Positions 1 through 18,206 of a stretch of DNA of 21,423 nt are shown piece after piece. The DNA comes from a virus. Position 1 is the stretch's first letter. Each line of letters begins with the position of its first letter. Made by a program: the position numbers and the translations under genes. Under the pieces are notes generated by a model, which did no database searches, had not been told where the DNA came from, and saw only the letters and a list, made by a program, of their open reading frames with translations. Location: the IMG/VR virus record IMGVR_UViG_3300028384_000806, positions 6,625 to 28,047 of that record. One strand, written 5' to 3'.

Positions 1-2812
1 ATGCACCACCGTTTCCACTGCCCCCATTTGCGCTATCGTCCCCTCCAGAGTTTCCATTACCATTGCCGCCACCCCCGCCGCCTCCAGCGCGTTCAAATAA
101 AATTGTTCTACCAGTTTCACCAGATCCTACAGCAGGGGCGTTCCATGTACCACTATTGTCGTATTGTGTCCAATTTCCAGTGACAGATGATGTAGATGCT
201 TCAGATTTACCATCACCACCCGTTCCAGGAGCATTATCTGTGCCGCCACCTGGAATATTAGAACTATCAGTACCTGTTCCACCACCATCACTGCCATCTA
301 AACCATTGCTACTACTATAAGTAAAGTCTGGATCATCAATCAAAACTTGAGGAATAAGAATTGTTCCGCCAGAACCTCCATTACCACCATTACTTCCTCT
401 TTGACCACCACCTCCACCATATGCATAAACAGTTTGAGTTGTTCCTTTCCAATTGAAAGTAGCATATGCATAACCACCATTACCACCATCATTGCCATTA
501 TCAGCACCACCACCGCCAGGAGCAACCAAATTAATAGTAATTTGAGAAAATTCTTCACCAGCACCAGCAGTTACTGCATTCATATTGATAGTTCCTGGTG
601 TGTTTCTATCATCAGACTGGAAAATAACACCAGTACCAGGAATATCAAACTCATCTGGTTTTCCACCAATTACAGTATTTCCATCAATAACATATGTTCT
701 TGGATCTGGAATTGAGGTTTCTGTTGTAAATGTACCAGTAGCAATTTTAGCAGTAATTATACCAGGAGCGGGTGAAACAACAGGAGTATCAACAGGAGTA
801 TATGTAAAAGTTGTGCCAGTTAACTGATCTGAAAGAACTTCAAATGCTCCATTATAAGCCACATCAGTAGATCCTGAAATTTCAACAACCATCCCAGCAT
901 CAAAACCATGTGCTTCTGCTGATGTTGCTAATGCGTATCCAAGTGAAGCTTCATATGTAATTGAAGCGATAGTAACGATTGGTGATCCTGTTACAGGATA
1001 AGTTCCGTTTGGATCTGGTGGATCTTCAGGAATGCCACCACGTAATCCAATTGCTTGAATGCCAACCATGTCATTAGCATTAAGATTTCCTGGGGGGGTG
1101 GTAGATTTCTGCTCAACATTATTATCTAACTCCTGAAATATTTCAAATGCTTGATTTGCAGTTTGTAAAGCAGTTGGAATTGGAACAAAGTTTTGTGTCC
1201 AATACGTATAAATTGCATCATATTGGGAAAAACCAGTAGATCCTGTTTGTGCTTGAAAATCTTGTGCAGATGGAATAAGTTCATCTTCTGTTCCATCACT
1301 AAATCTAATTTTTAATCCTTCACCAGGATTATTGACTCTTTCACCACCATTACCATCATTACCAGATATAGCAAAGATATACAATTGTGTATATCCAGTG
1401 AAGTCCATTACATATCTAACTTTTCTACTAGTGAGAAATTGCGATCCGCCATATGCACCAGTAGCATCATATCCGAATGCTAGATACTTATCACCTCTAT
1501 CAGTTACAGATGGAGCAGCAAATCCGCCAATCTCACCCGTTCCTGTACCATAATTTTCTAAAGAAACATTCGTATATGTAGCACCACTTGTTAGTACAGA
1601 ATCATTTACATCATAATTTACATCAGCAGGAACATTAGGATCTTCTCCACCAATACCAGCAGTATTACCATATGTTGCCATTCTTGGATCATTCAGTGGA
1701 GTATTCAATAAACCATGGGAGTGACCTAATGCCAATCCATTTGATCCCTGTGGTTCAAACGGAATAAGATTTGCTCTAGTCTTGGTATAAAGAACAGCAT
1801 ATTGATCTGAAGGAGAAGTGCCAAACTCAGCTTCCAATCCTTCATCTGGTTCTGATGATAAAATATAGTGAAAGTGTTCTACTGGTCTGCTGAAAATGTG
1901 ATCATCAATAGGACCAATTGTAAATTCAACACTACCAGTAATATTAGTAAAAATATCTGCAGCAATATTTGTATATCCAGTAGTTTTTACATTTCCAACA
2001 TTGAAAAATACACCACCATCAAGCAAATTGCTTTGAGAAATAAACCATCTACCACCAGTTTGTCCAACATTATTGATCAGAGCATTTTCAATAGTTGGTG
2101 ATCCATCTCCATCTACAGCACCATAACCAGTAATAATTCTATCTCTATAATCTGGTAAATTGAATGTTCCAACATTATATGGATAATCTCGAAAATTAAA
2201 TGTTTTTCTAAATTTTACATATGGATGATTTCCAGCAGTAAAAACAACTGTAGATCCAGATACAGCAGCAGTTGATGCAAATACAATTTCATATGCAAAT
2301 TCAGATCCATTTTGTGGAACTTGAGAAGTTACATCTTCAGTTGGAGCTTTTGTTCCATAAAAAGTATTATATGCAAAGTTACTATCCAATCCACCCAATC
2401 CATTTCCTGGAGTAGTTCCACCAGTGTTATCAATAGGTCTAAAAAGAACACCATATGGATATGGCATCTTTACTGGTCCAGCAATACTAGCGTCTGCTTT
2501 GATGTTGATAAATGCTTTTCCATTGATATAGTATAACTTTGTGATACCACCTGCTTGAGAAGGTTGTGTTTTTTCAACTTCAGGAGCACCTCCATAAGTA
2601 TTACCAATACAATTATACAAATGGGGATGTTCTCTGATATTTAAGGTGCGACCATCACAATATAAGAAATTTCTGTATGAATAAGCAGGATCTTCACCAC
2701 TATCTCCAGAATTAAGATCGACTAAGAATGGGACGATAGTACCTACAGGTTGGTACTGACCATCAGTTTCTTGCTTATATGCAGAGAATTTATTTCTGTA
2801 ATCGATTGCCAT
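1..2812 (-). CDS. Tail-collar protein 3 with glycine-rich C-terminal region (3' end beyond window)
   Basis: The frame stays open from an ATG at 2812 to the left edge (about 937 residues, no stop seen), so the gene is truncated by the window. Residues 20-75 look like a phage tail-collar domain (GTIVPFL, YCDGRTL at 51-57, CIGNTYGG at 68-75), and FNLPDYRDR near residue 218 is the conserved collar ending. HxH motifs lie at H313/H315 and H364/H366; in T4 gp12 and gp37 such motifs bind metal in trimers. Further on there is a module with the pattern AHGFDAG..VEISG..D..YNG, then from about residue 760 long glycine-rich tracts (GGGGADNGNDGGNGG and others) run to the edge. The start overlaps the stop of the upstream gene as TAATG, which suggests translational coupling. 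It is probably a virion tail or receptor-binding protein. The family call rests on motifs; the exact position in the virion is unknown. Confidence 0.8.
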   Translation of the reverse strand, partial: MAIDYRNKFSAYKQETDGQYQPVGTIVPFLVDLNSGDSGEDPAYSYRNFLYCDGRTLNIREHPHLYNCIGNTYGGAPEVEKTQPSQAGGITKLYYINGKAFINIKADASIAGPVKMPYPYGVLFRPIDNTGGTTPGNGLGGLDSNFAYNTFYGTKAPTEDVTSQVPQNGSEFAYEIVFASTAAVSGSTVVFTAGNHPYVKFRKTFNFRDYPYNVGTFNLPDYRDRIITGYGAVDGDGSPTIENALINNVGQTGGRWFISQSNLLDGGVFFNVGNVKTTGYTNIAADIFTNITGSVEFTIGPIDDHIFSRPVEHFHYILSSEPDEGLEAEFGTSPSDQYAVLYTKTRANLIPFEPQGSNGLALGHSHGLLNTPLNDPRMATYGNTAGIGGEDPNVPADVNYDVNDSVLTSGATYTNVSLENYGTGTGEIGGFAAPSVTDRGDKYLAFGYDATGAYGGSQFLTSRKVRYVMDFTGYTQLYIFAISGNDGNGGERVNNPGEGLKIRFSDGTEDELIPSAQDFQAQTGSTGFSQYDAIYTYWTQNFVPIPTALQTANQAFEIFQELDNNVEQKSTTPPGNLNANDMVGIQAIGLRGGIPEDPPDPNGTYPVTGSPIVTIASITYEASLGYALATSAEAHGFDAGMVVEISGSTDVAYNGAFEVLSDQLTGTTFTYTPVDTPVVSPAPGIITAKIATGTFTTETSIPDPRTYVIDGNTVIGGKPDEFDIPGTGVIFQSDDRNTPGTINMNAVTAGAGEEFSQITINLVAPGGGGADNGNDGGNGGYAYATFNWKGTTQTVYAYGGGGGQRGSNGGNGGSGGTILIPQVLIDDPDFTYSSSNGLDGSDGGGTGTDSSNIPGGGTDNAPGTGGDGKSEASTSSVTGNWTQYDNSGTWNAPAVGSGETGRTILFERAGGGGGGGNGNGNSGGDDSANGGSGNGGA

Positions 2813-3963
2813 TAGTATTTTATAAGAAACTCTTGTACGAGATATGGTTGAACAAATTGATCTGCTTTGTTTTCCTCATTAACATTAACACTGATGGTAG
2901 ATACTAGTTCTGCAGCAGGAATAAATGTTGGGGAAGTATTCACAACATATGTATGTGGTTGAGCACTGAAATTAACAAAGTGTCTATGTGTTCCATCATT
3001 ACCAGTTGCTACAACTTGATTAGTTACATTGTTAATAGCAGAAAATGCATCCTGATCACTATCTTTGAATGAATCAAATGGTAAATTTGTATCATCATAA
3101 TTTGATGTTAGAGTAGTGGGACCACGTTTTGCATCAGCATTAAATCCACCCAAAGCACAACCTGGGAATCCTACAGATTGACATTTGACTGCAACTGTTC
3201 CCGTGTAATCAATATTTCCACAAGTTGCTGTATCAGCACCATTGCCACCGCCACCACATCCACCAGTATTTCCAGACCAAATTGGGAATCCACAGGTATA
3301 TCCTTCAGGAATCAAACACTCATAACTAGATAAGAAGTTACATCCACTAAAGCATCCTGCGTAATAAGTTCTTTTACATCCAGCAGCGTTAGTCTCAGAT
3401 TGTGTAGTGCTAGCAAGTCTAATTCTAGTAGCATTAAAATAACAAAGATCTTGTCTTGTATTATTTGCCCAATCAAGCACGCACAATGTAGATTTTCTAG
3501 TATATGAGTTTCTGCCAAAAGCAGAAAATTCATTTTCTACAGATGAGGCAATTCTTGTTCTGGTTCCATCATGGAAGTGAGCATGTGGAATAAAAGCATT
3601 TTGTAAAACATCAGTCTCTTCTGTATAATTACCTGTGGATCTTACAAATCCAGGTTCTCCAGTAATTTCAATTGTTTGTGAAGGCAAGTAAAAACTACCT
3701 TGATATAAAATTTCATAAGAAGTACCAATATTACTCTGTACTTCTAATCCAACCCCAGATTTTGTAATAGTGTTGTTATTATCATCTTGAATAAACAAAT
3801 CAACATAATCACCTAAGTTAGCACCAGCAGATGCTTTAATTTTCTTTGAACCAAAATCGGGGAGTTGAAACTGGTTATCTAAAAGTGTTTGATTTGGTTT
3901 TTTATATCTAGATGTAGATCCTACACCAAGAATTTCTGCTAATGCAGGAAAAACATCAGCAAT
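2812..3963 (-). CDS. Tail-collar protein 2, cysteine-rich, start codon unclear
   Basis: The first standard start is a TTG at 3798, but the frame is open upstream of it, and the sequence there is plainly a collar domain: ADVFPALAEILGV, then FQLPDFGSKKIKASAG, then GDYVDLFIQDD. The likely true N-terminus is the ATT at 3963 (I-A-D-V-F-P), giving about 383 residues; no ATG, GTG or TTG lies in this frame between 3963 and 3798. This makes a 25-base overlap with the previous gene in the -1 frame. Counting from 3963, HxH clusters are at H127/H129/H131 and H326/H328. Residues 161-269 hold 11 cysteines and a Gly-rich stretch, unusual for a cytoplasmically assembled phage protein. The stop TAA shares one base with the start of collar protein 3. 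It is probably a tail or fibre component. Alternatives for the 5' end are a frameshifted fusion with the upstream gene, or a sequence error that destroyed an ATG. Confidence 0.75.
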   Translation of the reverse strand: MADVFPALAEILGVGSTSRYKKPNQTLLDNQFQLPDFGSKKIKASAGANLGDYVDLFIQDDNNNTITKSGVGLEVQSNIGTSYEILYQGSFYLPSQTIEITGEPGFVRSTGNYTEETDVLQNAFIPHAHFHDGTRTRIASSVENEFSAFGRNSYTRKSTLCVLDWANNTRQDLCYFNATRIRLASTTQSETNAAGCKRTYYAGCFSGCNFLSSYECLIPEGYTCGFPIWSGNTGGCGGGGNGADTATCGNIDYTGTVAVKCQSVGFPGCALGGFNADAKRGPTTLTSNYDDTNLPFDSFKDSDQDAFSAINNVTNQVVATGNDGTHRHFVNFSAQPHTYVVNTSPTFIPAAELVSTISVNVNEENKADQFVQPYLVQEFLIKY

Positions 3964-5204
3964 GCTCGGATTACAACTAAAGTGGTCAGAGAAGGTGTGT
4001 TTGGATTGATTTGAACGCTCAAAGCCTTATCAACACTGACAGGAGAAATTGTTCCTGTTGTCATATTATTTATGAGGATTGTTCCAGGAATACGCATTTG
4101 ACCTTTTTCCATAGCAATATCAATCGTAAAATGATTGTGAGATGCAAGTGCTTCTGAATTCCAAAGATCAGCATTGTGGTTCAATGTTGTTGGATATGGA
4201 TATAGAGAACTTCCGCCACGAGATGGGGGAACATTGCCAGCAGAATAAAAGTTTAATCCTCCTTGATATCTGCCAGCAGGAGGAAAGGGAGCAGAAATTG
4301 CTGGTTCTTGAACATTAATAATACAAGTGTTTGGATCTTCATAATCAAGAGTATTACCATATCCAGTAACATTTCTAGAAGTTCCTGGTATGGCAGGAAG
4401 TGAATTTGGTGCTGCAGTAAAGTCTCTAAATTGGTTTAGTGTTGGCAAAGAGAACCCAGCCTCATCATACCAAGTTACAAGTGCTGTTCCAGGATTGAAT
4501 CTGTCAGCAGAAGATTCTCCAGGATTTACAGGTTCAGAACTAACAGTTGTATATTCCGAATCCTGAACATCATAATTTCCTGCTTCAAATAACCCAACAT
4601 AACCACCAGCAATTACAGTAGATGGATATTTCTGATCTGCTTCTTCTGGTTGTGGGTGACTGTGAGATGGTGTATGATCAATACCTAGTTTTCTAGGGAT
4701 AGTTCTCATTGTAGAAAAATATGCAGGATCTTCAATAGTGATACCCGTAATTTTCCCACCTAGAGATGTATCAGTCTCAATAGAAAAATTTACATCAATA
4801 TATGAAATTGATGTTGTTGGTGGTGCTGCATCCGCACCATTTTCTGTAATATATTGCCCCACAACAACTTGATCTGAAGGATCTAATCTAGATCCTTCCA
4901 AATCTACTAATCCTGTATTATTCAGGTTAGGAAGAGTAAATACATCATTCTCATCATAATTAGGATAAGAATTGATAATACCTACTGGTGGTCCTCCTGG
5001 TTCTTGGAAAGGTCCGTAAGTATTTCCAATCAATTGTGCCAGAAGAGGATAATCTCTTGCTAGAAGTGTTTGCCCACGGCAAACAATATACCCAAATGGT
5101 ACAGCATCTTCTGCAAGAGAAGAACTACTAGAAGAACCAGCCCAGGGCATAATAGTCCCAATTGGAGACTGTTTCGCTGCCCTGATGCGATTGTAACTTG
5201 CCAT
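3939..5204 (-). CDS. Tail-collar protein 1 (short-tail-fibre-like)
   Basis: This 421-residue protein opens with PIGTIMPWAG (14-23), an acidic/Ser-rich loop, FGYIVCRGQTL (37-47), YPLLAQLIGNTYG (52-64) and VFTLPNL (88-94). That order is the phage tail-collar domain found in short tail fibres and baseplate proteins. HxH motifs at H181/H183 and H356/H358 resemble the metal-binding histidines of T4 gp12. The ATG at 5204 is well supported: GGAGG lies 8 bases upstream, inside the last codons of the giant gene, and the giant gene stop is a tandem TAATAA directly before this ATG. The C-terminus reads TTLVVIRA and then a short odd tail, LLMFFLH, which may be extra sequence read through where the next gene should start. 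It is probably a structural tail protein made in the same operon as the giant protein. Its exact virion position is not known. Confidence 0.85.
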   Translation of the reverse strand: MASYNRIRAAKQSPIGTIMPWAGSSSSSSLAEDAVPFGYIVCRGQTLLARDYPLLAQLIGNTYGPFQEPGGPPVGIINSYPNYDENDVFTLPNLNNTGLVDLEGSRLDPSDQVVVGQYITENGADAAPPTTSISYIDVNFSIETDTSLGGKITGITIEDPAYFSTMRTIPRKLGIDHTPSHSHPQPEEADQKYPSTVIAGGYVGLFEAGNYDVQDSEYTTVSSEPVNPGESSADRFNPGTALVTWYDEAGFSLPTLNQFRDFTAAPNSLPAIPGTSRNVTGYGNTLDYEDPNTCIINVQEPAISAPFPPAGRYQGGLNFYSAGNVPPSRGGSSLYPYPTTLNHNADLWNSEALASHNHFTIDIAMEKGQMRIPGTILINNMTTGTISPVSVDKALSVQINPNTPSLTTLVVIRALLMFFLH

Positions 5205-5207
5205 TTA

Positions 5208-8200
5208 TTAGACCTCCGTTAACCACCAACCTTGTACAGCAGAAGGAATACCAACTTGACCATTACTATCACTGGAACCAAGATAGACTAGAGCAAATGC
5301 TGCATTTGGTGTTTGAACAACCAGTTCTCCTGAAGGATATGGTGTCAATCTACCACCCAACAATGTACCAGTAGAATCTCCTTGAATTTTTGTTCCAGAA
5401 GTTTCTTCGGTTCTCAATACAAGGGATGTATTATAATTTAGGTTACCACTGACATCAACAATTCTAACCACATCACCAGTTGTGGGAGATGTTGGTAATG
5501 TAAGAACAAGAGTTGATTGTGCTGTAGTATTTACCATATAAACAATATTTGGAAGCAACGTTAGATCTTCCTCTGCAGAAGCACTTGAGATGTATCTAGT
5601 ATGTCTTGCACCAGATGCTGTATAGAAGTTTGTGTAACCAAACGAATCAATTGATCTATCTTGCTTGACGGCAAATTTATCATTTCCATTTGGACCAAGA
5701 TTTGTGATAGAGAGTTGCTCAAGTGTTGTTGATGGGGTTGCATTTGCTTCACCAATAACAGTCAGAGTTGTTCTAACTTCTGCATTTCCAAGGTTATCAA
5801 CTGAGAATGTTGGATCCTGTGCATCAGGGTTAGTAATAACGTTTTCAGGATCTTGAGCACTGAATAGATAGAAGTCGCCGCGACCAATGACACCAGCATC
5901 GAATGTCATCAATCCCTGGTGATCTGGGTGACCATCATCATTGACGAATGCAAATAGTCTTGTCTTATTGACAGAATCAAAGATTTCAAGACTTCCACCA
6001 ATCATTCTGAGGTTATTTGAAAGATGCAATGAACCTGTTCTAAACTCAACAGCACCATCCTTAAGTTGCTCATCCATTACACTTGTATGAACAACACCCT
6101 TCAATCTACCATTGACAACTGCCCATGTTTGTGCTTGGTGCTCAGAATTAGTTAGACAGAGCCAACCAAGATAGTCAATCTTTTGCTGTGCAATATATCC
6201 TTTATCAAGGATAACAGAGCAATAATCACTCTGAGCACCAGCAACAGTTCTAGTTCTTGTTTGTACATCAATAATTCTTGAGAATTCTGGATGCTTGAGA
6301 ACTCTTCTTACAATATTACCATTGTTGAATACATTGTCAGAAGGTGTAAATGGTTCATTGGTCTGTAGTTCATCGGTTTGAGATGCTCTAATAACGATTG
6401 TTGGATTTGCAGGATCATTATCAACAATTTGAATGATAACACCAATAATAAACGTTCCTATTCCAGTAGATGCTGCAGTAGAATCACCAACAAATACATA
6501 ATCACCTACTTGGAATCTACCACTACCAACTCCAAGAGTTTGAACTGGAATTTGAATCTGACTAGAAGATCCAGCAACATTAGTTCTAATTGTTGTACTA
6601 GGTCCTCCTTCATTAACGACTTGTGGATCAAACCAGAAACCATAAGCATATTCAATTTCATCATTATTCCAGGCAGTTGTAATTCCTGCTGTATTAGTAA
6701 TAGTATTTGTTGTTCCCCCCCTCTCACCAAAGGCAACATCAATTCTTCCAAACTGAGTACCAATATGAGTGGTTCCAGTACATGTATCAACTTCAAAGGT
6801 AGGAACATTATTGCCATTAGTTAGAGATAGTAACTCATTTCTTAGAGCACCAAATCTAACAGTTGCCGTAGAAGATCCAAGTACAGGGTTATTAAGGAAA
6901 ATTCTATTATTAGCAACATCAACTGCTTCAACTTTAGTATCAAATTCGGTTTCCAGAGCAGCTTCATTAGTGATTACTCTAACGGCATCGCCAGGAAGAA
7001 TGTCAGCAATTGTCGTATCAGCAGTCTGAACAGAAACGGCAGTTAGAATTTTAGAACCAGCAGTTCCATTTGCATCAAATTCGATATTACTTCTTGTTCC
7101 ACAACCACCTTTGAGAGTAATGTTGTTATTGATAGTAAGATCGCCCTTAATTGTTGTATCACCTGTTACAGAATTGACAATGAATACATCGCCTCCTCTA
7201 TCATCACAATCAACACCATTATTGATTCTGAACTCTTGAACTTCTTGATTGAGTAATTCAGCAACTTTAACATATTCTGCTAATCCAGTAGTGTCATTTC
7301 TACTTACAATAATGTAGTCATCTGTGGTCAGATTTCCTCCAAATTCAGCAAGATAGAAATTATCCTGAGATCCTGCTCCATCAACATTTTGCTCTAACCA
7401 TGTAGAGTCAAACTGTACATTAACCTTGTAAATTGGTGTAGTATCAGGGTGATTGGTTAGAACCGCACCAAACTGACCAAATGGTCTGCGCTTAACTCTC
7501 AAGTAATAAGGACCAACATTAGCTCTCATTACCTCAAGAATTTGTAAGAATTCGGGATGTCCAGAACCACTTACAGCACTATTGACAATAATGAAATCAT
7601 TTGTTGATAGATATGCATCACCATTAGCAAGAGTTGGTTTGTTTTTAATTGGTAGGTAGTATTCATCACCAGTTAGAGTAGCTAGTTCCTGAGGTTCAAC
7701 TTCAGGTGTTCCACCAATGTTTGTAACTTCCTGCTGATAAGCAGATCCACCCCATTGTCCAGAACCAGCAGTATCAACTGCATTGTATCCATCATCAGTT
7801 GGTTCTAGAACAAGAACATTGAGAATATCAACATTCTTGGTGAATGATCCATCAGGTTCTACACCATCTGAATGAGCAGAAATTGCAGATCCAAGTTGTG
7901 CTCTATCGCCAAGAATTGTAAATGCAGCAGATCCACCACAAAGTAGAATTTCGCCATCAAACTTAGCAGAAGCAACAACATGTAGTGAGTTGTTGATAGT
8001 GGTTGTACCACCCTGACCAGCGATATTAAGTTCAGAAGCATTTAGACCGAAGTTAATTGTAGAAGGACCACCAGAGTTAGAGAAGAAGTTGATGAAGGAT
8101 GCTTGTGATCTTAGGTTTGCCGTGCCACCTGGGCGACGGAATCCTAACCACTGGTCACCATCAACTCTGAAGGACTGAGCATGTACTCTTACATAAGAGA

Positions 8201-11200
8201 GGTCTTCGTTAGTGTTACCAAAAGCACCACCAAGTGAAATCTTACTGATGCCTATACCAGGAGTAGCAACAGAACCATCAGCAGCAACAGTAGCACTATC
8301 AGGAGTGTTACCGATGTAAATGTTGCTGTGTGCTGAAGCATTGCCAACATAGAAGAACTGATCTCCAAGAACGTTATTACCAACATTGACTGTATTGGTA
8401 GAAGAGTTGTTACCGATATTGATTGTCTGAGCATTGGTAGTTACATCAGCAAATCTTACTGTCTCAGCACCATTAGCAATATTTGCTGTATTAGCAGCAT
8501 TTACTAGATTTGCCGTTGTAGCATAGTTTGCTAGATTTACAGTTCCTACAAATGCTGTATCATTAATGATATTGAATGTAGTATTAGCAACTGTTCTAAT
8601 TTCAGCAGTTGTTCCATCACCTTGAACTTCAATGTCACGCTCAAAACGAGCATCTTCAGTAAAGCGAGAATCACCACGAACAACTAATGCTCTATTAAGT
8701 TCAGAATCAGTTACGTTAATACCTACCTTATTCTGATTGTTACCTCTACCAGACTCAGTGATTGCTGAAGTCTCAGTAGAAACACGAAGTGCAGCACGTA
8801 CAGCATCGATATCATTACTATTTGGTGATGGATTCTCATCCTCCCAACCAACGACAAGTGCATCAGAAATTCTATTCTTCTCACGATCAGCATACTCATC
8901 TTCCGATAACCAATCAGTCATCTTGCGACCACTGATATATGCATTACCGACTACATCTAAGTTTGCACGAGGATCAGTATTAACTGGTTCAACAAATCCA
9001 TCTAAGTAAGCATCATGTGATGCTCTTGCGATAGTGTTGATTCCAAGTTTATAATCACCATATGTTTCAGTTTCAGTTCTGAGTGCTTCACCACCAATGA
9101 TTGCTGTTTCTTTCCAGTTAGAAACAGAGAAGGAAACAATAATATTTGGTGATGGATTTACAGGAGCATTGATAATATCAGCATTCCAGTTAGCATTGAA
9201 TGCACCAATTGGAGTTCCAGTTCTTGGATTGATCTGGAAATAAACTACATTATCATTTGGATTATATGGATAAGAAGGAGTAGAAATTACCTTCCATGTT
9301 CCGTTGAGGAGACCATTATAGTTGATATTTTGTAGTCTAATCTCAGAAGAAGACTTAATATTAAGTGATCCAATAGTAACAGGATTGCTATTGCTATCGA
9401 TAAACGTAAATTTACCAACATTTACTCCCTGATCAACAATAATTTCTAAAGATGAGATAATGTTGTTGGGAATAGTGTTGTAGATGTTAGCATAGATCCA
9501 ACCAAGAGAACCGTTCTTATTGATAGCAGAACCCTTGAGTAAAATATCACCAGTTGTTGGTAAAACATTGGTGTAAGTTACATACTGAGTAGCAGCAAGT
9601 CTAGATCCACCAGCAGAGATGAGAGCATCTTGGTTAGGTGTGATGTTAGAAGCAACACCACCAGGAGCATGTGTTTGAATCTTATAAGTTTGCCCCTCAC
9701 CTCTTGGATTAAATCCAAAGATAGCAGCATCAACACGGTTCTTACCGATTCTGATGTCACCAGAAGTGTTGGGGAAGAACGACTCTCTATCAAGTGATAG
9801 ATCCTGTGGAAGACCACTGATAGGATCAACTTCAGAGACGAGAGAGTAAATAACCAGAGGAGCATTTAAGTTTCTTAACTGTCTATCAGGTACATTGATT
9901 AGTACAGGAGAGTTAATATTATTGACTAACTCGCCATCTGGACCACCAACAATTGTGATGTTTTGGTTAAAGGTTACAGGTGTATCGAAGGTGGTAACGA
10001 GTTGTCCGATTACGTCATCCTCGTCTCCATCATCAACTAGAGTTGCTCTGTCAATGAAGGTTTCTTCACCAGTGATAGCATTGATTCTTCTATTACCAAT
10101 GTAGAGGTCACCCTGAGAGTTGATACCAGTGTAGAACACAATACCAGCATCTTGCTTCTTAGATTGTGCATAGAAGTCTTCATCAGGAGTTAGAACGATC
10201 TCCTGACGCGCTGGGAGACCTGTGGAGTAGTTACCAGGACCGAAACCAAGGTATTCAAACGTGTGGTTACCAGCACGGGCAATAGATGGTCTGCGAAGTT
10301 CAACATAGTAACGCTGATCTGAAAGAACTTCGCTATCACCAACAATAGGAATGCGACGATCTTCAGAACCAGAAGTTGCATTACCTTGCTGTGCCTTAAT
10401 TTCATTATCAGCAGTATAAGTATTCTCGACAAATGCAGGTTGCTTTGTCAAGTCACCCATCAATTCTCTAGTTACAGAATGCTTAGTATCATTAACAGTA
10501 ACTTTGCCGTGAATGTAATTATCGGCAGCAGAGAATGCTACAGGTGGATCGATTAACTGAGAATAGTAGTTCTTCTCTTCATTAGTTGTACCGTTCTTAG
10601 TAAACCAAAGAGGATCATTTCTGTAGTTTAGAGGATACAGTTTGCCAACTGGTTGAGAGAACTTAAAGTTCTGGAAGTTAGTAGAAACACCAGCACCTTG
10701 TGGGAATGGAGAGATGTTACCACGGAGAGCAGTTAGATAGTAGATACCATCTTGCTGACCAGCGATACGCTTCTGTAGTTCTTCACTATCAAAGATGTAG
10801 AAAGTATCTTCAATGACTCCAACATCCTCAACACTATAAACATAGTATTCAATACCAGCATCATCTTGAATACGATCGCCAGGAGTGATAGTATAAACGT
10901 TAGCGCCGTTTTGCTTGTAATAATACTCAGGGAATTTTTTCTTGATATGAGTCTTCAGAGGTAGCGATTTACCCATATCCTGGTCTTCTAGCATATCTGC
11001 AAAGACAGAACCTTGAGTAAATCTAGTACCTTGGAACTCACTATACTCAAGTGAAGCAACACCTTTAGCACCACTAATACTCTTAATGATTAGATAGTGA
11101 TCACCACCAACATTATAATAAGCATGAATGAAAGCAGTACCAGAAGAATTACCAGCAAAAGAAACTGCATTGCCAGAAATTTTCTCAGTTTTATTTGCTA

Positions 11201-14200
11201 CAAATTCTCCACCTTGTGGTGCAGAAATCTTAACAGTAGTGAAGATTTCGTTTCTTAAACCAGGGAAGTTTCTAGTATCAACTCCATGATCAAATAGAGT
11301 TAGTTCTAGATAGTTGATAGAAGGATCTAAATCATCTTGTACATAGCGACCAGATTGAATTGTAGTCTGAATACCAGAGCTAAAGCGAGCAAATGCTCTA
11401 TAATCAACATCCTGATCCTCACCAGTTAGTGGTCTTCTGAATGGATCATATGAATTTAAATCATTGAGAGTATCATCAGCATCGAACTGAGATTTAGTAA
11501 ATCCAATAAATTCACCTGGCTGTTGTGGGTTCTCAAAACGAGCACCATATACATTACCAGAAACAGGTTTGAGTAGAACTTTCTGAGGAACTAATCTACG
11601 AGTGTCATCAGTTCTTGTCTTAATAGCAAATCCATTGATAGGATCTCTCGCATTCTCAAGATACTTAGGAATGACATAACGTAGTTTATATGTTCTCTCG
11701 TCTGCCTCACGAGTATCATTAACACGCTCATACCATGTATCTGTTGTAGTAGGTTTGCTAGAATAATCTGGTTCTTGGATACGATAGAAAATTTCGTTGT
11801 AAATAATATTATTATCAGATTCACCAGTAATTCTATCTTTACACTGTAAGAACCACTTACCATTATCAGTATCATCACCATTGAAACCAGGATCAAAGCG
11901 CATTGGACTACGCTTCTTATTAGCAAGAACTCTGAAACGTCCATTTGCATTGTTGAATGTGATTGGAGTTACGTTGTTTAGAGCATCAGCAAGTGTCTTG
12001 TGAATAGTAAAGACTTTGCTGGTCTGATAACGAACATAGAACTCAACACTTGGATTAATCTTACCCGCATCAATACCAGATGTAATAGCAACTGCTGGGT
12101 CAGCAGCATAAGAAGTAGAGAGATCAGGTAGTTCGCTGCCTTCAATTGCTCTAAAGAATACTTTCTGAGGTGTAGTAGCAGTAGATGGTTTGTCAAAGAC
12201 ATGGGCGATGTCTGTCTCAATACCACCAACAACAGTGTTGTTAAGGTCACATGAATAAGTAATTAGATCATACTTCTCATCAATAACAAACTGATAGATA
12301 TCGATTTCAACATCAGGATCGATTGTCTGAGTTTCAGAAGCGTAGATGTAAATACCTGCTGCAGCATTTTCCTTAGAAGTTGCAAGCATCAACTTGGTTT
12401 GATCACTACCATTGAAGTATTCAGTACCACTATAATCAACAGGTTGTGTTGCTCTACCAGGAGCAATTACATAGTATGTTTCATTAGTCTCGAAACCATT
12501 AGGAAGTCTGACAAGACGCTTATCGACATCAACATACTGACCAGTGTTTGTATCAAAACGAGGACGTGGTACGAGTCTAACAGGTGTTCCAGTCTCAAAG
12601 TCGTGAGCGTTAGTTGAACCATATCCAGTAACATCAATGGTAAATACAGTTGCTCTGGATGCTAATAATGCAGTATTGAATGTTGCTTCAACACGATCAA
12701 CTGTAGGAACCGTAACACCATTTACAACCTTGGTTAGACCAGTATTGATAATAGTAGTAATGTTCTCTGTTAGCTGAAGGATAGCAGTAGCAGTAGAAGC
12801 ACATTCACGCTGAGAAGGTGAAACTGTAGTGTCTTGAATGACATCTGGATCAGTTGATTCGGGTCCAACAGTTACAGTTTCAGGAAGTGTATCTGCCCAA
12901 GTTCCTTTCTCGAATGTGAAGTAAAGATTAGTGCTTGTGCTTGTCTGTAAAGCATTGACAGTGTTACCAGTCTCCAATCTAGAACCTTCAACACCAAGTT
13001 CGATGGTGCTAGCATCAACAATTCTCTTGACATATGTGCCAGCAGGAATGTTGGTTGTGATTGGTGTAGAACCAGGATTGAGAAGACCATTAGTGAAGTT
13101 GGATAGAGCATACTCTTCGACCTTCATGCCGATTAGAATACCTGAACTATCATCAACATCAACTAAAGCAGAACCAGTAGTAGTAGAGCAGTTGAATGCA
13201 AGGAAGTCAAAGTTACGCATTGCTGCGATTGCCATTTGACCGACATAGTTCCATGCGTCAATGGTCTCTGTCTTCTCTCCATCGATATACTCTAGTTGAT
13301 TACCAACAAAGTATGCTTCACCTGCCTGTACAGAATTAATGTTGCCACCATATCTGAGGTCATTGACAATAGCATCAACGATGTAAGAAACGTCTCTAAA
13401 GCACTTAGATGCCTCTGCATTAGCGATAAAGTCGCCATTATTAACAACTGGTAGTCCATCAAGAGAACCGCTAGAAACGGCATCTGTGATGATGTCAAAG
13501 AGGTTCTCAATTGAAGAACGAACATTAGCACAATCCCACTCACCAGTGCTTAAAATTGGTAGATTGTTTAGGTTACCATCATTTAGAGAATCAATAACGA
13601 TACTAGTTAAAGTGTCAATTGTTCCTAGAACATCAGAGCAATTGCCTAGAGTATAAGTAGTTGGTTGTTGTGTGACAGTTCTGGTGATTCCACTGAGGTT
13701 ACCAACACCAGCATCAGTACCAATTGCCTGAATGATAATACCGAAGAGAGTATCAGTAGCAGCAATAGCAGATCCACACTGAGGTAGTGGTGCTGCGTCA
13801 TCATCCCAATCATCAGTAATAGTGTAGTCAAAGACCTGAGTCTCTGTGTTACCAGCAGAAACAGATACAGTTTCGTTGTTGATAACTTGGATAGCAATGT
13901 TCTTTGCTTCAAGGAATACCTTGGCAGCTTCGTCACGTTCAGCGTCAATGAATGTCTCTACAACATTACCATTGAAAGTATTAGTTACATAAACGTTAGC
14001 AGCATCATAAGTTTTATCATTACCGCCATACTTAACGTTGAAAGCAATCTCATCTAATACATCATAAACATCATCTAGGCAGTCTTGCTTGGTGTTACCA
14101 GTCTGAGGAGTATATGCTGGATAAGCAGCAAGCATACGCTCATATGCCTCAGCAGCAATAAACTTCTTATTATCAAGAATAGAGATGGAAGCGTTGGAGT

Positions 14201-17200
14201 GAATGTCAGAGAATACTGGAGGATCACCAACAGCATCTAAAGTAATAGTTAAGTCACGGTAGTAATACTGATTATTGACAGCACGGTTCATCAAATCCTG
14301 TGCTCTTCTAAATGCAGTGATCGAAGGACCAACTTCATTATCAACGCCATTGGTGATTAGACCATTATTGTCAAAGTATTCCTTAGTAGCAGCAATAGTG
14401 TATTCGTTACCACCAAACCAGAGGTCTTGTGCAACTGCATCAACAATGTGACCAATATCTCTACGACACTTAGTTTCTTCTGCTAGTAATGATCCAGGAT
14501 TCTCAGCAGGTAGAGAATTTAAATTACCATTAGTAATAGCATCAATTGCAATTGAAGCAAGACTGGAAATAGCAGTTTGAACATTAGAACAAGATGTGGG
14601 ATCTTGGTTATCACCAGTTAATGGATCTGGAGTTACTGTTAAGTCCTTATCATATAATTGGTTTGTGACTGCCTTATACATAAAGTCAGCAGCTTCATTG
14701 AAAGCAGTAACACTTTCTGCTTCTTCACCAACTAAACCATTGCTAATAGGTGCATTATTGCTGAAATACTGCTGGATAAATGTTCTGGTGTGCTTATTAC
14801 CACCAGTAGTAAGATCGACCGAAACAGCATCAATAAAGTATCCAATATCACGACCACACTTGGTTTCACCAGGACCACCTTCTCCTTTATTGAGTTCTAA
14901 TGGTAAAGAATCTAAGTTTCCGTCATTGATAATTGTGAAGACAATACCATATAGTGAATCGATAGAAGATTGAACATCAGCACAAGCAGCATTAGATGTT
15001 CTGGAAATATCTCCACCAGCACCACCATATGTTGCTGGACCTTCAGTAACAGTTAAATCTTTTACTGTAAGTTGGTTGGTGATTGCCAACTTCATTTGAG
15101 CTCTTGCTTCACTGAAAGCAAGAATACTTGGTTGCTCTTCACCAACTAGACCATTAGTGATTGGATCACCATTAACATCAAAGTATTCTGCAGCAAATCT
15201 GTATGAATACTCGTTACCATTGATAAACAAGTCAAGAGATACAGCATCTACAAAATATCCAATGTCACGCTTACACTTAGTTTCAGTAGAAGCAACTGCA
15301 GGGTAGGAGGAAATCATGTTTCCCCATGCAATATCAATGATCTCATCCTTATTTTGCTGGATCAATCTATAAGCATCAGCATATCTTGAACGCTCATCAG
15401 TTTGCTGATCGCCAGGGAAGTAGAAATCAGGATGAGAGAATGCAATCTTAGCAAGTGCTCTATCTTTAATCTCTTTGCTATTGCGACGAATAGACTTAAA
15501 TGCATCCGCAAAGCGAGTTGTAGCATGGTTTGGATCCATGCCAGGGATAACAAAATCAGGATGATAAACACTAATTTCTGCTAGTGCTGCGTCAAGAATA
15601 AACTCACGGTTAGCAACAATACGATTACGAGCATCCTTATAACGACCAGCAGGATCTTGCTTGTTAGCAGCATCAACTGTAACACCCTCACTGTCTAATC
15701 CAAGGGCAGCAGAACCAGTGCTACCAGCAACAATACCATAAGGAGTTAAGATGCTATTAGGATCTGGATCGTAAATTGTTGCCTTAACTGTTAAGAGGTT
15801 AGCAATTGCTTTCTTACAGAGATCTCTTGCTCTGTTGAATGCAAAGATAGATTGCTCTTCCTCACCTACTAAACCATTATTAAGTGGAGCACCGTTACCA
15901 TCAAAGTAGAATCTGGTTGCTTCGATGATGTTTCTGTTACCACCATCTCTAAGGTCTTCAGAGATAGCATCAACGATGAAACCAATGTCACGCTTACATT
16001 TACCATCAGCAACACCTTGGATGTTACTGATACCAAACGTTTCGACCATTTGATCGAATGCAGTATCAACAATCTCCTGGCGGTTTGCTTGAATTAGATT
16101 CTTAGCGTCGAAGTAACGACCAGCAGCAGGGTCTAGACCAGGATTAACATATGAAATGTTCTGGAGTCTTGGATACTTCTCTAGGATATAACCGAAGATC
16201 TCTTCTTGGATCATACGGCGGTTGCTAGCAATTAAGTTAGCACCATCTACATTGTTGTTGTCAATCGAGAAATTACTTGGATTAAGGATAGAACCTTTAG
16301 CAATATACTTAACAAAACCAGTTGGTTCTAATGTTGCCTCGAAGGTATCAATATTATTTTTCTGGTCTAATTTAACATATAGTTTATCATTAGACTTAGC
16401 ACCAACTCTAAATCCACCAATTGTAGCAGCAGGACGGTTCAATGGATTGTCTAGATTCGTACCACCAAGGAATAGTTTGGATTTATTGGCGGAATCTTGA
16501 ACTGTACCCTGAACATCAATAGTATAGTAGAGAACTTTCTCTCTGTTTGTCTCACTCTCAACAACTTGCTGAGGTGGAATGATGTCAGTAATATAACCTG
16601 CCTTATCTTGGTTGAAGGAGAATCCCTTGAAACCAATAGCATGAAGTGATGTATTACCGAAGTTGGAGTTAGAGTTGGTGATAGACATGTCACCACCTGA
16701 CTCCATCAGGAAGTGATCAGCAAAACCAACAGCGAAGATCGAAACGTTCTGGATGAAAGCATCTTCTGAAGCACGAACGTGGAAGTTTCTCCAGTCATCC
16801 TTCCAGTAAGAATCGCCCTTAGCGTGATAAGGAACAGTAGCAAAAGCATCTACTAGTGATGCTTGGTTCCAAGTATTAGCATACTCATCATAACGAATAA
16901 ATGCTCTATCGTCTCTCTGCAATGAAACGCCCGTATATTGGGCGATAACCATTGACTTAAATCCAGTCGCTTTAAGACCATTTGCCCAGATACCACAAAT
17001 ACCCCAGACAGAACGAATTGAGACGTTGAAGACATATGGAGAAGCAGATTCAACCGAATCAACTTCAGCAAGAACCTGTGCGTTTTGTCCTAGTGCTGGT
17101 GTTGTATCTACACTTACTTGAATACCAGATGAAAGACCCTGACCGATTCCACTAACGACAAAAGGAACACGATAAGTGAATTTACGAGGATCATCAGAGA

Positions 17201-18206
17201 TATTGTAAATAGGCCAGAAACCTTCAATCTCGTCATCAATTTCAGTGTTGGAAATAGCAACAAACTGACCTGAGAAATAACCGTGATCAACCTTAGTGGT
17301 TACTTCAATTTCTGTAGTTGATGCTGGGATAGATGCATCTGTCGTAGCATCAGTAAATTTAAGAGACTCAATAACTCTAGAGTCAGATAGAGGTCCAACG
17401 ATTCTATTTTCTTGAACGTTGAAATCAAATTCAGGAATACCCTCAGGTGATACATCATCAATTGTGGGTTGATAAGCAGAGAATGCTTTAGCAATTTTTC
17501 TATAGAAGAGTTGCAACTCTTCCTTATCAGCATATTCAAATACTGTTAGTTTATGGTGAGAGAAGTTAGGAATTGCCTTCTTAGTGAAGTCATATGGATC
17601 GTAATAAACCTCACCAGAACCAATAGAAGGATTGTAAAGTGGAGACTCAGCAGTTGTCTGACCATCCTTAATAGTAAATTGCCAGAAGTAGCAACCACCA
17701 GTTACATTAAAGATAGCAGAACGAGGATATGTTACAGAAGAAGGTTCTGGAACATATAAAGGACGAACAGTAGTTCTTCTAAGGTCATAACCTACGAGGG
17801 AAGAACCTCTAGGGATAATAGCACCACCCTCAGTGTTATTAAATCTATAAAGAATGTTGTCAGGATTAGAAATATCAAGAATAGGATCATCACCCCAAGA
17901 ATTCAATGCTTGACTAAAGTCAAAAACATCAATACCAGCAGTATCTACAATACCAGGACGGTTATCAATGTAGTGGATGCCTGGCATCAGCATCACTGTA
18001 AACTGGTCAAATCTATCGTTAGATGGACCAGGAGTATATGAATATCTTGCAATTTCAAGGAATGCACGCTGGATGCTCTTGAAAGGTGTTACAGGTGAGT
18101 TACCTCTATTAGATAACGAATCTGTAGCATTGAAGTCATCAGGAGAAACATAAAGATACTTACCAGTTTTTGAACTAATAAGGTTATCCAGACGTGTTAA
18201 AGGCAT
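5208..18206 (-). CDS. Giant virion structural protein (4332 residues), beta-helix and repeat modules
   Basis: This single uninterrupted 13-kb gene starts at an ATG at 18206, about 42 bases after a TATAAATA late promoter, with a weak AGGG upstream. I recognise the N-terminus as a type seen in cyanomyoviruses and annotated there only as a structural or fibre protein. Residues 1-250 look like the start of a right-handed beta-helix: NSPVTPFKSIQRAF at 36-49 and VMLMPGIHY at 71-79 resemble DUF1565-type folds. An HGYFSG..V.IS module lies near 300-345. Residues about 650-1630 are mostly helical repeats built on KCxRDIGxxVDAxxxDLxxGGN and RYxDAxxxIxxNxxEIxDxA. The C-terminal half is beta-rich, Asn/Thr/Gly-rich fibre sequence with ladders such as YVGN and IYIGN near 3270-3300 and GDTTIKGDLTINNNITLKGG near 3690. 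It ends in GWWLTEV. No enzymatic site was seen. It is likely a long tail-associated fibre or baseplate appendage; the virion position is inferred. Confidence 0.9.
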   Translation of the reverse strand: MPLTRLDNLISSKTGKYLYVSPDDFNATDSLSNRGNSPVTPFKSIQRAFLEIARYSYTPGPSNDRFDQFTVMLMPGIHYIDNRPGIVDTAGIDVFDFSQALNSWGDDPILDISNPDNILYRFNNTEGGAIIPRGSSLVGYDLRRTTVRPLYVPEPSSVTYPRSAIFNVTGGCYFWQFTIKDGQTTAESPLYNPSIGSGEVYYDPYDFTKKAIPNFSHHKLTVFEYADKEELQLFYRKIAKAFSAYQPTIDDVSPEGIPEFDFNVQENRIVGPLSDSRVIESLKFTDATTDASIPASTTEIEVTTKVDHGYFSGQFVAISNTEIDDEIEGFWPIYNISDDPRKFTYRVPFVVSGIGQGLSSGIQVSVDTTPALGQNAQVLAEVDSVESASPYVFNVSIRSVWGICGIWANGLKATGFKSMVIAQYTGVSLQRDDRAFIRYDEYANTWNQASLVDAFATVPYHAKGDSYWKDDWRNFHVRASEDAFIQNVSIFAVGFADHFLMESGGDMSITNSNSNFGNTSLHAIGFKGFSFNQDKAGYITDIIPPQQVVESETNREKVLYYTIDVQGTVQDSANKSKLFLGGTNLDNPLNRPAATIGGFRVGAKSNDKLYVKLDQKNNIDTFEATLEPTGFVKYIAKGSILNPSNFSIDNNNVDGANLIASNRRMIQEEIFGYILEKYPRLQNISYVNPGLDPAAGRYFDAKNLIQANRQEIVDTAFDQMVETFGISNIQGVADGKCKRDIGFIVDAISEDLRDGGNRNIIEATRFYFDGNGAPLNNGLVGEEEQSIFAFNRARDLCKKAIANLLTVKATIYDPDPNSILTPYGIVAGSTGSAALGLDSEGVTVDAANKQDPAGRYKDARNRIVANREFILDAALAEISVYHPDFVIPGMDPNHATTRFADAFKSIRRNSKEIKDRALAKIAFSHPDFYFPGDQQTDERSRYADAYRLIQQNKDEIIDIAWGNMISSYPAVASTETKCKRDIGYFVDAVSLDLFINGNEYSYRFAAEYFDVNGDPITNGLVGEEQPSILAFSEARAQMKLAITNQLTVKDLTVTEGPATYGGAGGDISRTSNAACADVQSSIDSLYGIVFTIINDGNLDSLPLELNKGEGGPGETKCGRDIGYFIDAVSVDLTTGGNKHTRTFIQQYFSNNAPISNGLVGEEAESVTAFNEAADFMYKAVTNQLYDKDLTVTPDPLTGDNQDPTSCSNVQTAISSLASIAIDAITNGNLNSLPAENPGSLLAEETKCRRDIGHIVDAVAQDLWFGGNEYTIAATKEYFDNNGLITNGVDNEVGPSITAFRRAQDLMNRAVNNQYYYRDLTITLDAVGDPPVFSDIHSNASISILDNKKFIAAEAYERMLAAYPAYTPQTGNTKQDCLDDVYDVLDEIAFNVKYGGNDKTYDAANVYVTNTFNGNVVETFIDAERDEAAKVFLEAKNIAIQVINNETVSVSAGNTETQVFDYTITDDWDDDAAPLPQCGSAIAATDTLFGIIIQAIGTDAGVGNLSGITRTVTQQPTTYTLGNCSDVLGTIDTLTSIVIDSLNDGNLNNLPILSTGEWDCANVRSSIENLFDIITDAVSSGSLDGLPVVNNGDFIANAEASKCFRDVSYIVDAIVNDLRYGGNINSVQAGEAYFVGNQLEYIDGEKTETIDAWNYVGQMAIAAMRNFDFLAFNCSTTTGSALVDVDDSSGILIGMKVEEYALSNFTNGLLNPGSTPITTNIPAGTYVKRIVDASTIELGVEGSRLETGNTVNALQTSTSTNLYFTFEKGTWADTLPETVTVGPESTDPDVIQDTTVSPSQRECASTATAILQLTENITTIINTGLTKVVNGVTVPTVDRVEATFNTALLASRATVFTIDVTGYGSTNAHDFETGTPVRLVPRPRFDTNTGQYVDVDKRLVRLPNGFETNETYYVIAPGRATQPVDYSGTEYFNGSDQTKLMLATSKENAAAGIYIYASETQTIDPDVEIDIYQFVIDEKYDLITYSCDLNNTVVGGIETDIAHVFDKPSTATTPQKVFFRAIEGSELPDLSTSYAADPAVAITSGIDAGKINPSVEFYVRYQTSKVFTIHKTLADALNNVTPITFNNANGRFRVLANKKRSPMRFDPGFNGDDTDNGKWFLQCKDRITGESDNNIIYNEIFYRIQEPDYSSKPTTTDTWYERVNDTREADERTYKLRYVIPKYLENARDPINGFAIKTRTDDTRRLVPQKVLLKPVSGNVYGARFENPQQPGEFIGFTKSQFDADDTLNDLNSYDPFRRPLTGEDQDVDYRAFARFSSGIQTTIQSGRYVQDDLDPSINYLELTLFDHGVDTRNFPGLRNEIFTTVKISAPQGGEFVANKTEKISGNAVSFAGNSSGTAFIHAYYNVGGDHYLIIKSISGAKGVASLEYSEFQGTRFTQGSVFADMLEDQDMGKSLPLKTHIKKKFPEYYYKQNGANVYTITPGDRIQDDAGIEYYVYSVEDVGVIEDTFYIFDSEELQKRIAGQQDGIYYLTALRGNISPFPQGAGVSTNFQNFKFSQPVGKLYPLNYRNDPLWFTKNGTTNEEKNYYSQLIDPPVAFSAADNYIHGKVTVNDTKHSVTRELMGDLTKQPAFVENTYTADNEIKAQQGNATSGSEDRRIPIVGDSEVLSDQRYYVELRRPSIARAGNHTFEYLGFGPGNYSTGLPARQEIVLTPDEDFYAQSKKQDAGIVFYTGINSQGDLYIGNRRINAITGEETFIDRATLVDDGDEDDVIGQLVTTFDTPVTFNQNITIVGGPDGELVNNINSPVLINVPDRQLRNLNAPLVIYSLVSEVDPISGLPQDLSLDRESFFPNTSGDIRIGKNRVDAAIFGFNPRGEGQTYKIQTHAPGGVASNITPNQDALISAGGSRLAATQYVTYTNVLPTTGDILLKGSAINKNGSLGWIYANIYNTIPNNIISSLEIIVDQGVNVGKFTFIDSNSNPVTIGSLNIKSSSEIRLQNINYNGLLNGTWKVISTPSYPYNPNDNVVYFQINPRTGTPIGAFNANWNADIINAPVNPSPNIIVSFSVSNWKETAIIGGEALRTETETYGDYKLGINTIARASHDAYLDGFVEPVNTDPRANLDVVGNAYISGRKMTDWLSEDEYADREKNRISDALVVGWEDENPSPNSNDIDAVRAALRVSTETSAITESGRGNNQNKVGINVTDSELNRALVVRGDSRFTEDARFERDIEVQGDGTTAEIRTVANTTFNIINDTAFVGTVNLANYATTANLVNAANTANIANGAETVRFADVTTNAQTINIGNNSSTNTVNVGNNVLGDQFFYVGNASAHSNIYIGNTPDSATVAADGSVATPGIGISKISLGGAFGNTNEDLSYVRVHAQSFRVDGDQWLGFRRPGGTANLRSQASFINFFSNSGGPSTINFGLNASELNIAGQGGTTTINNSLHVVASAKFDGEILLCGGSAAFTILGDRAQLGSAISAHSDGVEPDGSFTKNVDILNVLVLEPTDDGYNAVDTAGSGQWGGSAYQQEVTNIGGTPEVEPQELATLTGDEYYLPIKNKPTLANGDAYLSTNDFIIVNSAVSGSGHPEFLQILEVMRANVGPYYLRVKRRPFGQFGAVLTNHPDTTPIYKVNVQFDSTWLEQNVDGAGSQDNFYLAEFGGNLTTDDYIIVSRNDTTGLAEYVKVAELLNQEVQEFRINNGVDCDDRGGDVFIVNSVTGDTTIKGDLTINNNITLKGGCGTRSNIEFDANGTAGSKILTAVSVQTADTTIADILPGDAVRVITNEAALETEFDTKVEAVDVANNRIFLNNPVLGSSTATVRFGALRNELLSLTNGNNVPTFEVDTCTGTTHIGTQFGRIDVAFGERGGTTNTITNTAGITTAWNNDEIEYAYGFWFDPQVVNEGGPSTTIRTNVAGSSSQIQIPVQTLGVGSGRFQVGDYVFVGDSTAASTGIGTFIIGVIIQIVDNDPANPTIVIRASQTDELQTNEPFTPSDNVFNNGNIVRRVLKHPEFSRIIDVQTRTRTVAGAQSDYCSVILDKGYIAQQKIDYLGWLCLTNSEHQAQTWAVVNGRLKGVVHTSVMDEQLKDGAVEFRTGSLHLSNNLRMIGGSLEIFDSVNKTRLFAFVNDDGHPDHQGLMTFDAGVIGRGDFYLFSAQDPENVITNPDAQDPTFSVDNLGNAEVRTTLTVIGEANATPSTTLEQLSITNLGPNGNDKFAVKQDRSIDSFGYTNFYTASGARHTRYISSASAEEDLTLLPNIVYMVNTTAQSTLVLTLPTSPTTGDVVRIVDVSGNLNYNTSLVLRTEETSGTKIQGDSTGTLLGGRLTPYPSGELVVQTPNAAFALVYLGSSDSNGQVGIPSAVQGWWLTEV
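5213..5217 (-). promoter_or_regulatory. Shine-Dalgarno GGAGG for tail-collar protein 1
   Basis: GGAGG lies 8 bases before the ATG at 5204. It is embedded in the last sense codons of the giant gene (ACG GAG GTC), followed by the tandem stop TAATAA. A ribosome finishing the giant protein would be placed to restart on collar gene 1. Confidence 0.75.
13340..16010 (-). repeat. Degenerate protein-level repeat array in the giant gene (Cys-Arg-Asp-Ile-Gly modules)
   Basis: At least six diverged copies of one module lie here, starting near 15995 (CKRDIGFIVDA), 15275 (CKRDIGYFVDA), 14865 (CGRDIGYFIDA), 14470 (CRRDIGHIVDA), 14085 (CLDDVYDVLDE) and 13405 (CFRDVSYIVDA). Most continue with DL..GGN, then YF..NG..I.NGLVGEE and an SI.AF helix. 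Between them are half-modules with another Cys, such as CADVQSSIDSLYGI and CSDVLGTIDTLTSI. The copies are alike in protein but not in DNA, which suggests old duplication. Confidence 0.75.
15380..16240 (-). repeat. Short helical repeat set RYxDAxxxIxxNxxEIxDxA in the giant gene
   Basis: Four or five copies of a helix-turn-helix-like motif of about 45 residues occur here: RYFDAKNLIQANRQEIVDTA, RYKDARNRIVANREFILDAA, RFADAFKSIRRNSKEIKDRA and RYADAYRLIQQNKDEIIDIA. A looser copy lies just upstream (NLIASNRRMIQEEIFGYI). Each is followed by a short loop that often carries PDF or YP. The set is interleaved with the Cys-RDIG modules, so both belong to one alpha-helical superstructure. Confidence 0.7.

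Follow-up and report, generated by a model that had tools for sequence, protein, structure and literature searches.

Collar gene 2 of this virus, which as written has no ordinary start codon, very probably bears the scar left when 162 bases were deleted, either from the virus or from its assembly, as judged by alignment with its close kin. This explanation is an ordinary one: unusual translation initiation is unnecessary, and the locus displays neither a new mode of initiation nor a gene fusion.

The tail fibre locus and its missing start codon

We analysed a stretch of 21,423 nucleotides (the window), which comprises bases 6625–28047 of the 28,047-base virus record IMGVR_UViG_3300028384_000806. 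Judged by its CpeT and its cyanophage outer membrane-like protein, the window is from a cyanophage. Its nearest relative is an uncultured phage contig, IMGVR_UViG_3300017909_003717, hereafter L002. The features relevant here, with positions in the window, are as follows.

5208–18206, minus strand: giant fibre gene, 4,332 codons, a single open frame
3939–5204, minus strand: collar gene 1, short tail fibre protein, 421 amino acids as written (phrog_4591, Pfam Collar PF07484)
2812–3960 (frame 2812–3963), minus strand: collar gene 2 remnant, virion structural protein (phrog_31602), start codon absent
Continuing beyond the window edge, minus strand: glycine-rich collar gene 3
3961–3962, minus strand: deletion junction located by blastn, 162 L002 bases (1633–1794) absent, 1 base (T) of ambiguity
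3961–3963, minus strand: ATT codon, the start proposed in the initial annotation
3796–3798, minus strand: first in-frame TTG of the remnant; by alignment, its product would lack residues 1–107 of the intact protein
3949–3953, minus strand: run of five Ts (T5), the proposed frameshift site

The C-terminal part of the giant frame resembles a short tail fibre (phrog_4527). A run of 20 Ns occupies record positions 6605–6624, immediately before window base 1, and the window begins inside the glycine-rich collar gene 3.

The absence of an ordinary start for gene 2, from which the initial annotation set out, was borne out: no ATG, GTG or TTG lies in frame between the upstream TAA (ending next to 4027) and 3798. 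The only ATT codons in this interval are at 3963, 3933 and 3840, and the rest of gene 2 has no ATG, only TTG and GTG. As the annotation had stated, ATT 3963 lies 55 codons ahead of TTG 3798 and gives a 25-base overlap with gene 1. The T5 run had been placed at 3946–3950; its actual position is 3949–3953. Gene 1, which as written ends ..TTLVVIRALLMFFLH at a TAG (3939–3941), does run past its natural end, reading ..TTLVVIRA-LLMFFLH as opposed to ..TTLVVIRAF* in L002.

Family profiles located the two breaks. Residues 1–414 of gene 1 match positions 1–428 of 429 in phrog_4591, and its Collar domain scores with an E value of 1.6e-08. Gene 1 is thus a full-length family member with its Collar domain, in which only the last codon and the stop are replaced; the L002 counterpart matches the profile up to its last position. 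The homologous part of the window's gene 1 ends at 3963 (..TTLVVIRA), and 3939–3962 encodes the out-of-frame LLMFFLH plus TAG. Residue 2 of the window's gene 2 aligns to position 54 of 472 in phrog_31602, so that the first 53 residues, and not the start codon alone, are absent. The remnant covers only positions 54–472 of this profile, as opposed to 1–472 in both L002 and a second relative, L003; gene 2 of the window is a truncated phrog_31602 member. Set against the known families phrog_31602 (virion structural protein) and phrog_4714 (tail collar protein), the window's protein matches 54–472 of the phrog_31602 profile, with positions 1–53 absent.

The cut also splits a domain. Pfam Collar matches residues 40–65 of L002 gene 2, and a cut at 53/54 falls within this interval; the lost codons 1–53 encode the first half of the collar domain. 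Matches to PF07484 around the gathering score were found at residues 37–66 of gene 2 in L002, L003, L008 and L025, and the window's remnant gave no match to PF07484. AlphaFold models of the intact and the shortened gene 2 both had a mean pLDDT of 31.7, too poor for use, and a comparison of the family profile with solved structures returned no match.

The junction in close relatives

Because a DNA-level search of annotated phage genomes gave no matches, kin were sought in IMG/VR and by protein searches, and 42 distinct relative contigs were compared. L002 has the gene content and order of the window and differs by having the 162 bases. By blastn, L002 1–1632 aligns to window 5592–3961, and L002 1794–5730 to window 3961–19, with identities of 98.0% on the gene 1 side (3961–5592) and 94.9% on the gene 2 side (19–3961). 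When L002 1560–1900 was searched on the window's own record, the match split at the same junction. The extra 162 bases of L002 (1633–1794) fall exactly at window 3961/3962 and hold the last codon and TAA stop of gene 1, the TAATG start of gene 2, and gene 2 codons 1–53. L002 gene 1 has 415 amino acids and ends VVIRAF*, the final A of its TAA opening the gene 2 ATG (TAATG). L002 gene 2 has 433 amino acids and reads MAVFYNREKSKVGTNTGTIINWSRQLGSNDPDDVQNAANLPAGYLRCDGSIYA followed directly by ADVFPALAEILGV..., the window sequence resuming where the second segment begins.

The initial annotation had suggested aligning this junction in close relatives, and the alignment showed a clean stop and an ATG in all of them. 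In each of the 42 contigs, gene 2 starts with ATG exactly 53 residues ahead of residue 54, in the context TAATG (15 contigs), TAAATG (26) or TAAGATG (1). This arrangement of an ATG, usually in a TAATG or TAAATG context, followed by 53 residues, found in phrog_31602 gene 2 of 42/42 relatives, is absent from the window. The same boundary is intact in an isolate, Synechococcus phage S-RSM4 (Kyanoviridae). Its four-gene order is that of the window (giant short tail fibre gene, short tail fibre gene, structural protein, short tail fibre gene), with SRSM4_214, a comparably giant gene, at the place of the 4,332-codon frame. The gene 1 and gene 2 proteins, SRSM4_213 and SRSM4_212, are 35% and 29% identical to those of the window. 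In S-RSM4 a stop is followed by an ATG, and gene 2 (MAAFLNQERAKVGTTTGTIIAFPKEL...) keeps the N-terminal part absent in the window, with an N-terminal length as in the relatives.

Relative to these kin, the deletion removed the end of gene 1 together with the first 53 codons of gene 2. Gene 1 now leaves its family sequence and reads seven codons to a chance TAG. Gene 2 retains everything from residue 54 onwards but has no start, and is probably not usefully translated. In the record as it stands, gene 2 is a headless fragment and LLMFFLH a meaningless addition to gene 1. Since 162 is divisible by three, gene 2 still stands in the -1 frame relative to gene 1, as the TAATG overlap had set it; the junction would therefore merely mimic a frameshift site.

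A Shine-Dalgarno-like run (GAGGG type) precedes gene 2 in 33 of the 42 relatives. L002 (1610–1640) and most of the L022–L028 group have CCGAGC instead, plus the TAATG overlap, which suggests that gene 2 in these contigs may rely on translational coupling.

Other readings of the 5' edge

The initial annotation preferred a non-standard start, in which gene 2 truly begins at ATT 3963 and is coupled to the end of gene 1. This ATT is the only near-cognate codon where the homologous stretch begins, and AUU starts are known in bacteria: ATT is the start codon of E. coli infC (PMC5472188), and a Staphylococcus gene is reported to have an AUU start with a strong extended Shine-Dalgarno motif (PMC13009471). 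As in the window, the infC ATT lies at the apparent 5' edge of the gene. However, infC has an established, regulated start, whereas the window ATT is a product of the deletion junction, built from the last A of a gene 1 GCA codon plus TT, and not an ancestral start; the infC and Staphylococcus starts are established or conserved, unlike that of the window. No relative uses the ATT, and all 42 begin at an ATG 53 codons earlier. The only purine run upstream, CCGAG, lies at a distance of 1 base from the ATT, which is too short for it to serve as a Shine-Dalgarno sequence, and an ATT-started product would lack half its collar domain. A conserved AUU codon with a usable Shine-Dalgarno sequence is thus not what the window presents, and no relative has such a codon. 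We consider a genuine ATT start highly improbable.

An equally slim chance attaches to a -1 ribosomal frameshift near the T5 run that would fuse genes 1 and 2. Gene 2 is indeed in the -1 frame with respect to gene 1, and the 25-base overlap includes TTTTT. But the two genes owe this frame relation to the ancestral TAATG overlap, and the gene 1 frame reads ATG TTT TTC, that is G_TTT_TTC, unlike a slippery X_XXY_YYZ. Searching the overlap for the conserved X_XXY_YYZ heptamer of a programmed -1 frameshift gave a negative result. In L002 these five Ts are part of normal gene 2 coding sequence (GAT GTT TTT CCT) and lie in no overlap, and none of the 42 relative contigs encodes the fusion.

A simple base error or substitution that destroyed an ATG where the 5' edge of gene 2 now lies fares worst, and we regard it as almost inconceivable. 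A single base separates ATT from ATG, and an ATG at this place would pass by eye for a plausible start, but the corresponding L002 position is codon 53/54, internal to gene 2, and the difference from L002 is 162 bases, not one; L002 refutes this reading. The initial annotation had also listed an assembly error or recent mutation. That was apt as to the kind of event, but what happened was the deletion of 162 bases and not the base error that had been envisaged.

The apparent non-standard start in this metagenomic phage contig thus dissolves on alignment of the junction to close kin, and the record is unsafe at this locus for inferring start codons or gene fusions.

Loss from the virus or from the assembly

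Whether the bases are missing from the virus itself (a recent deletion allele or a defective genome) or from the assembled scaffold alone is close to an even choice, on which we lean slightly to a cause in assembly or library, because all kin keep gene 2. One 20-N gap interrupts the scaffold that makes up the record, and the one 162-base loss carries no Ns. A 34-mer spanning the junction occurred in no other of the viral contigs searched, its left half was found in L002 only, and a looser 18-base junction pattern gave 9 chance matches, none of them at related genes. Relative to kin, this is a deletion with exact ends and a defined content, unique in the collections searched. The missing segment is absent from elsewhere in the window's record. 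Direct or inverted repeats sought at the breakpoints yielded none of use; the breakpoints share only 1 base, so that nothing evident would have caused either repeat slippage or a k-mer misjoin.

Close to the junction the remnant has hardly changed, residues 54–213 being 97–100% identical to L002 in blocks of 40, and the deletion, if real, is therefore recent. An open and nearly unchanged gene 2 near the junction fits either recency or artefact, and is compatible with some residual expression.

It is unlikely that this is a real, selected deletion in which the head of gene 2 was lost, leaving a shorter product from TTG 3798 or no protein, and a changed tail tip. The remaining 328–383 codons of gene 2 are open, the tail fibre genes of this region form a variable set, and the tip of gene 2 (residues about 214–373) diverges from L002 far more than the rest. 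However, the deletion is confined to a single contig, its junction being absent from other viral contigs; an unbroken gene 2 is present in S-RSM4 as well as in each of the 42 relatives; TTG 3798 has no evident ribosome site; and the remnant is without ATG. More doubtful still is that the deletion is both real and fixed and has remodelled the tail tip, gene 2 being lost or expressed in a headless or fused form. A literature search on collar gene deletions in cyanophages found nothing. If the deletion is real, it would represent a loss-of-function allele of one among several neighbouring tail tip genes; if it is also fixed, it would serve as a naturally occurring test of which collar gene determines host range.

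Branch-wise substitution counts gave 6 synonymous and 19 non-synonymous changes for the window and 9 and 34 for L002, with 16 unresolved, all confounded by the highly divergent tip; with that same confounding, these counts revealed no excess decay in the window. Across the tip (residues about 214–373, window 2840–3480) gene 2 is 62–85% identical to L002, and close to the junction and at its C-terminus it is 97–100% identical. In places the tip is closer to other relatives (L003 and L008 types). On these alignments, the gene 2 tip is best described as a mosaic or fast-evolving tail tip.
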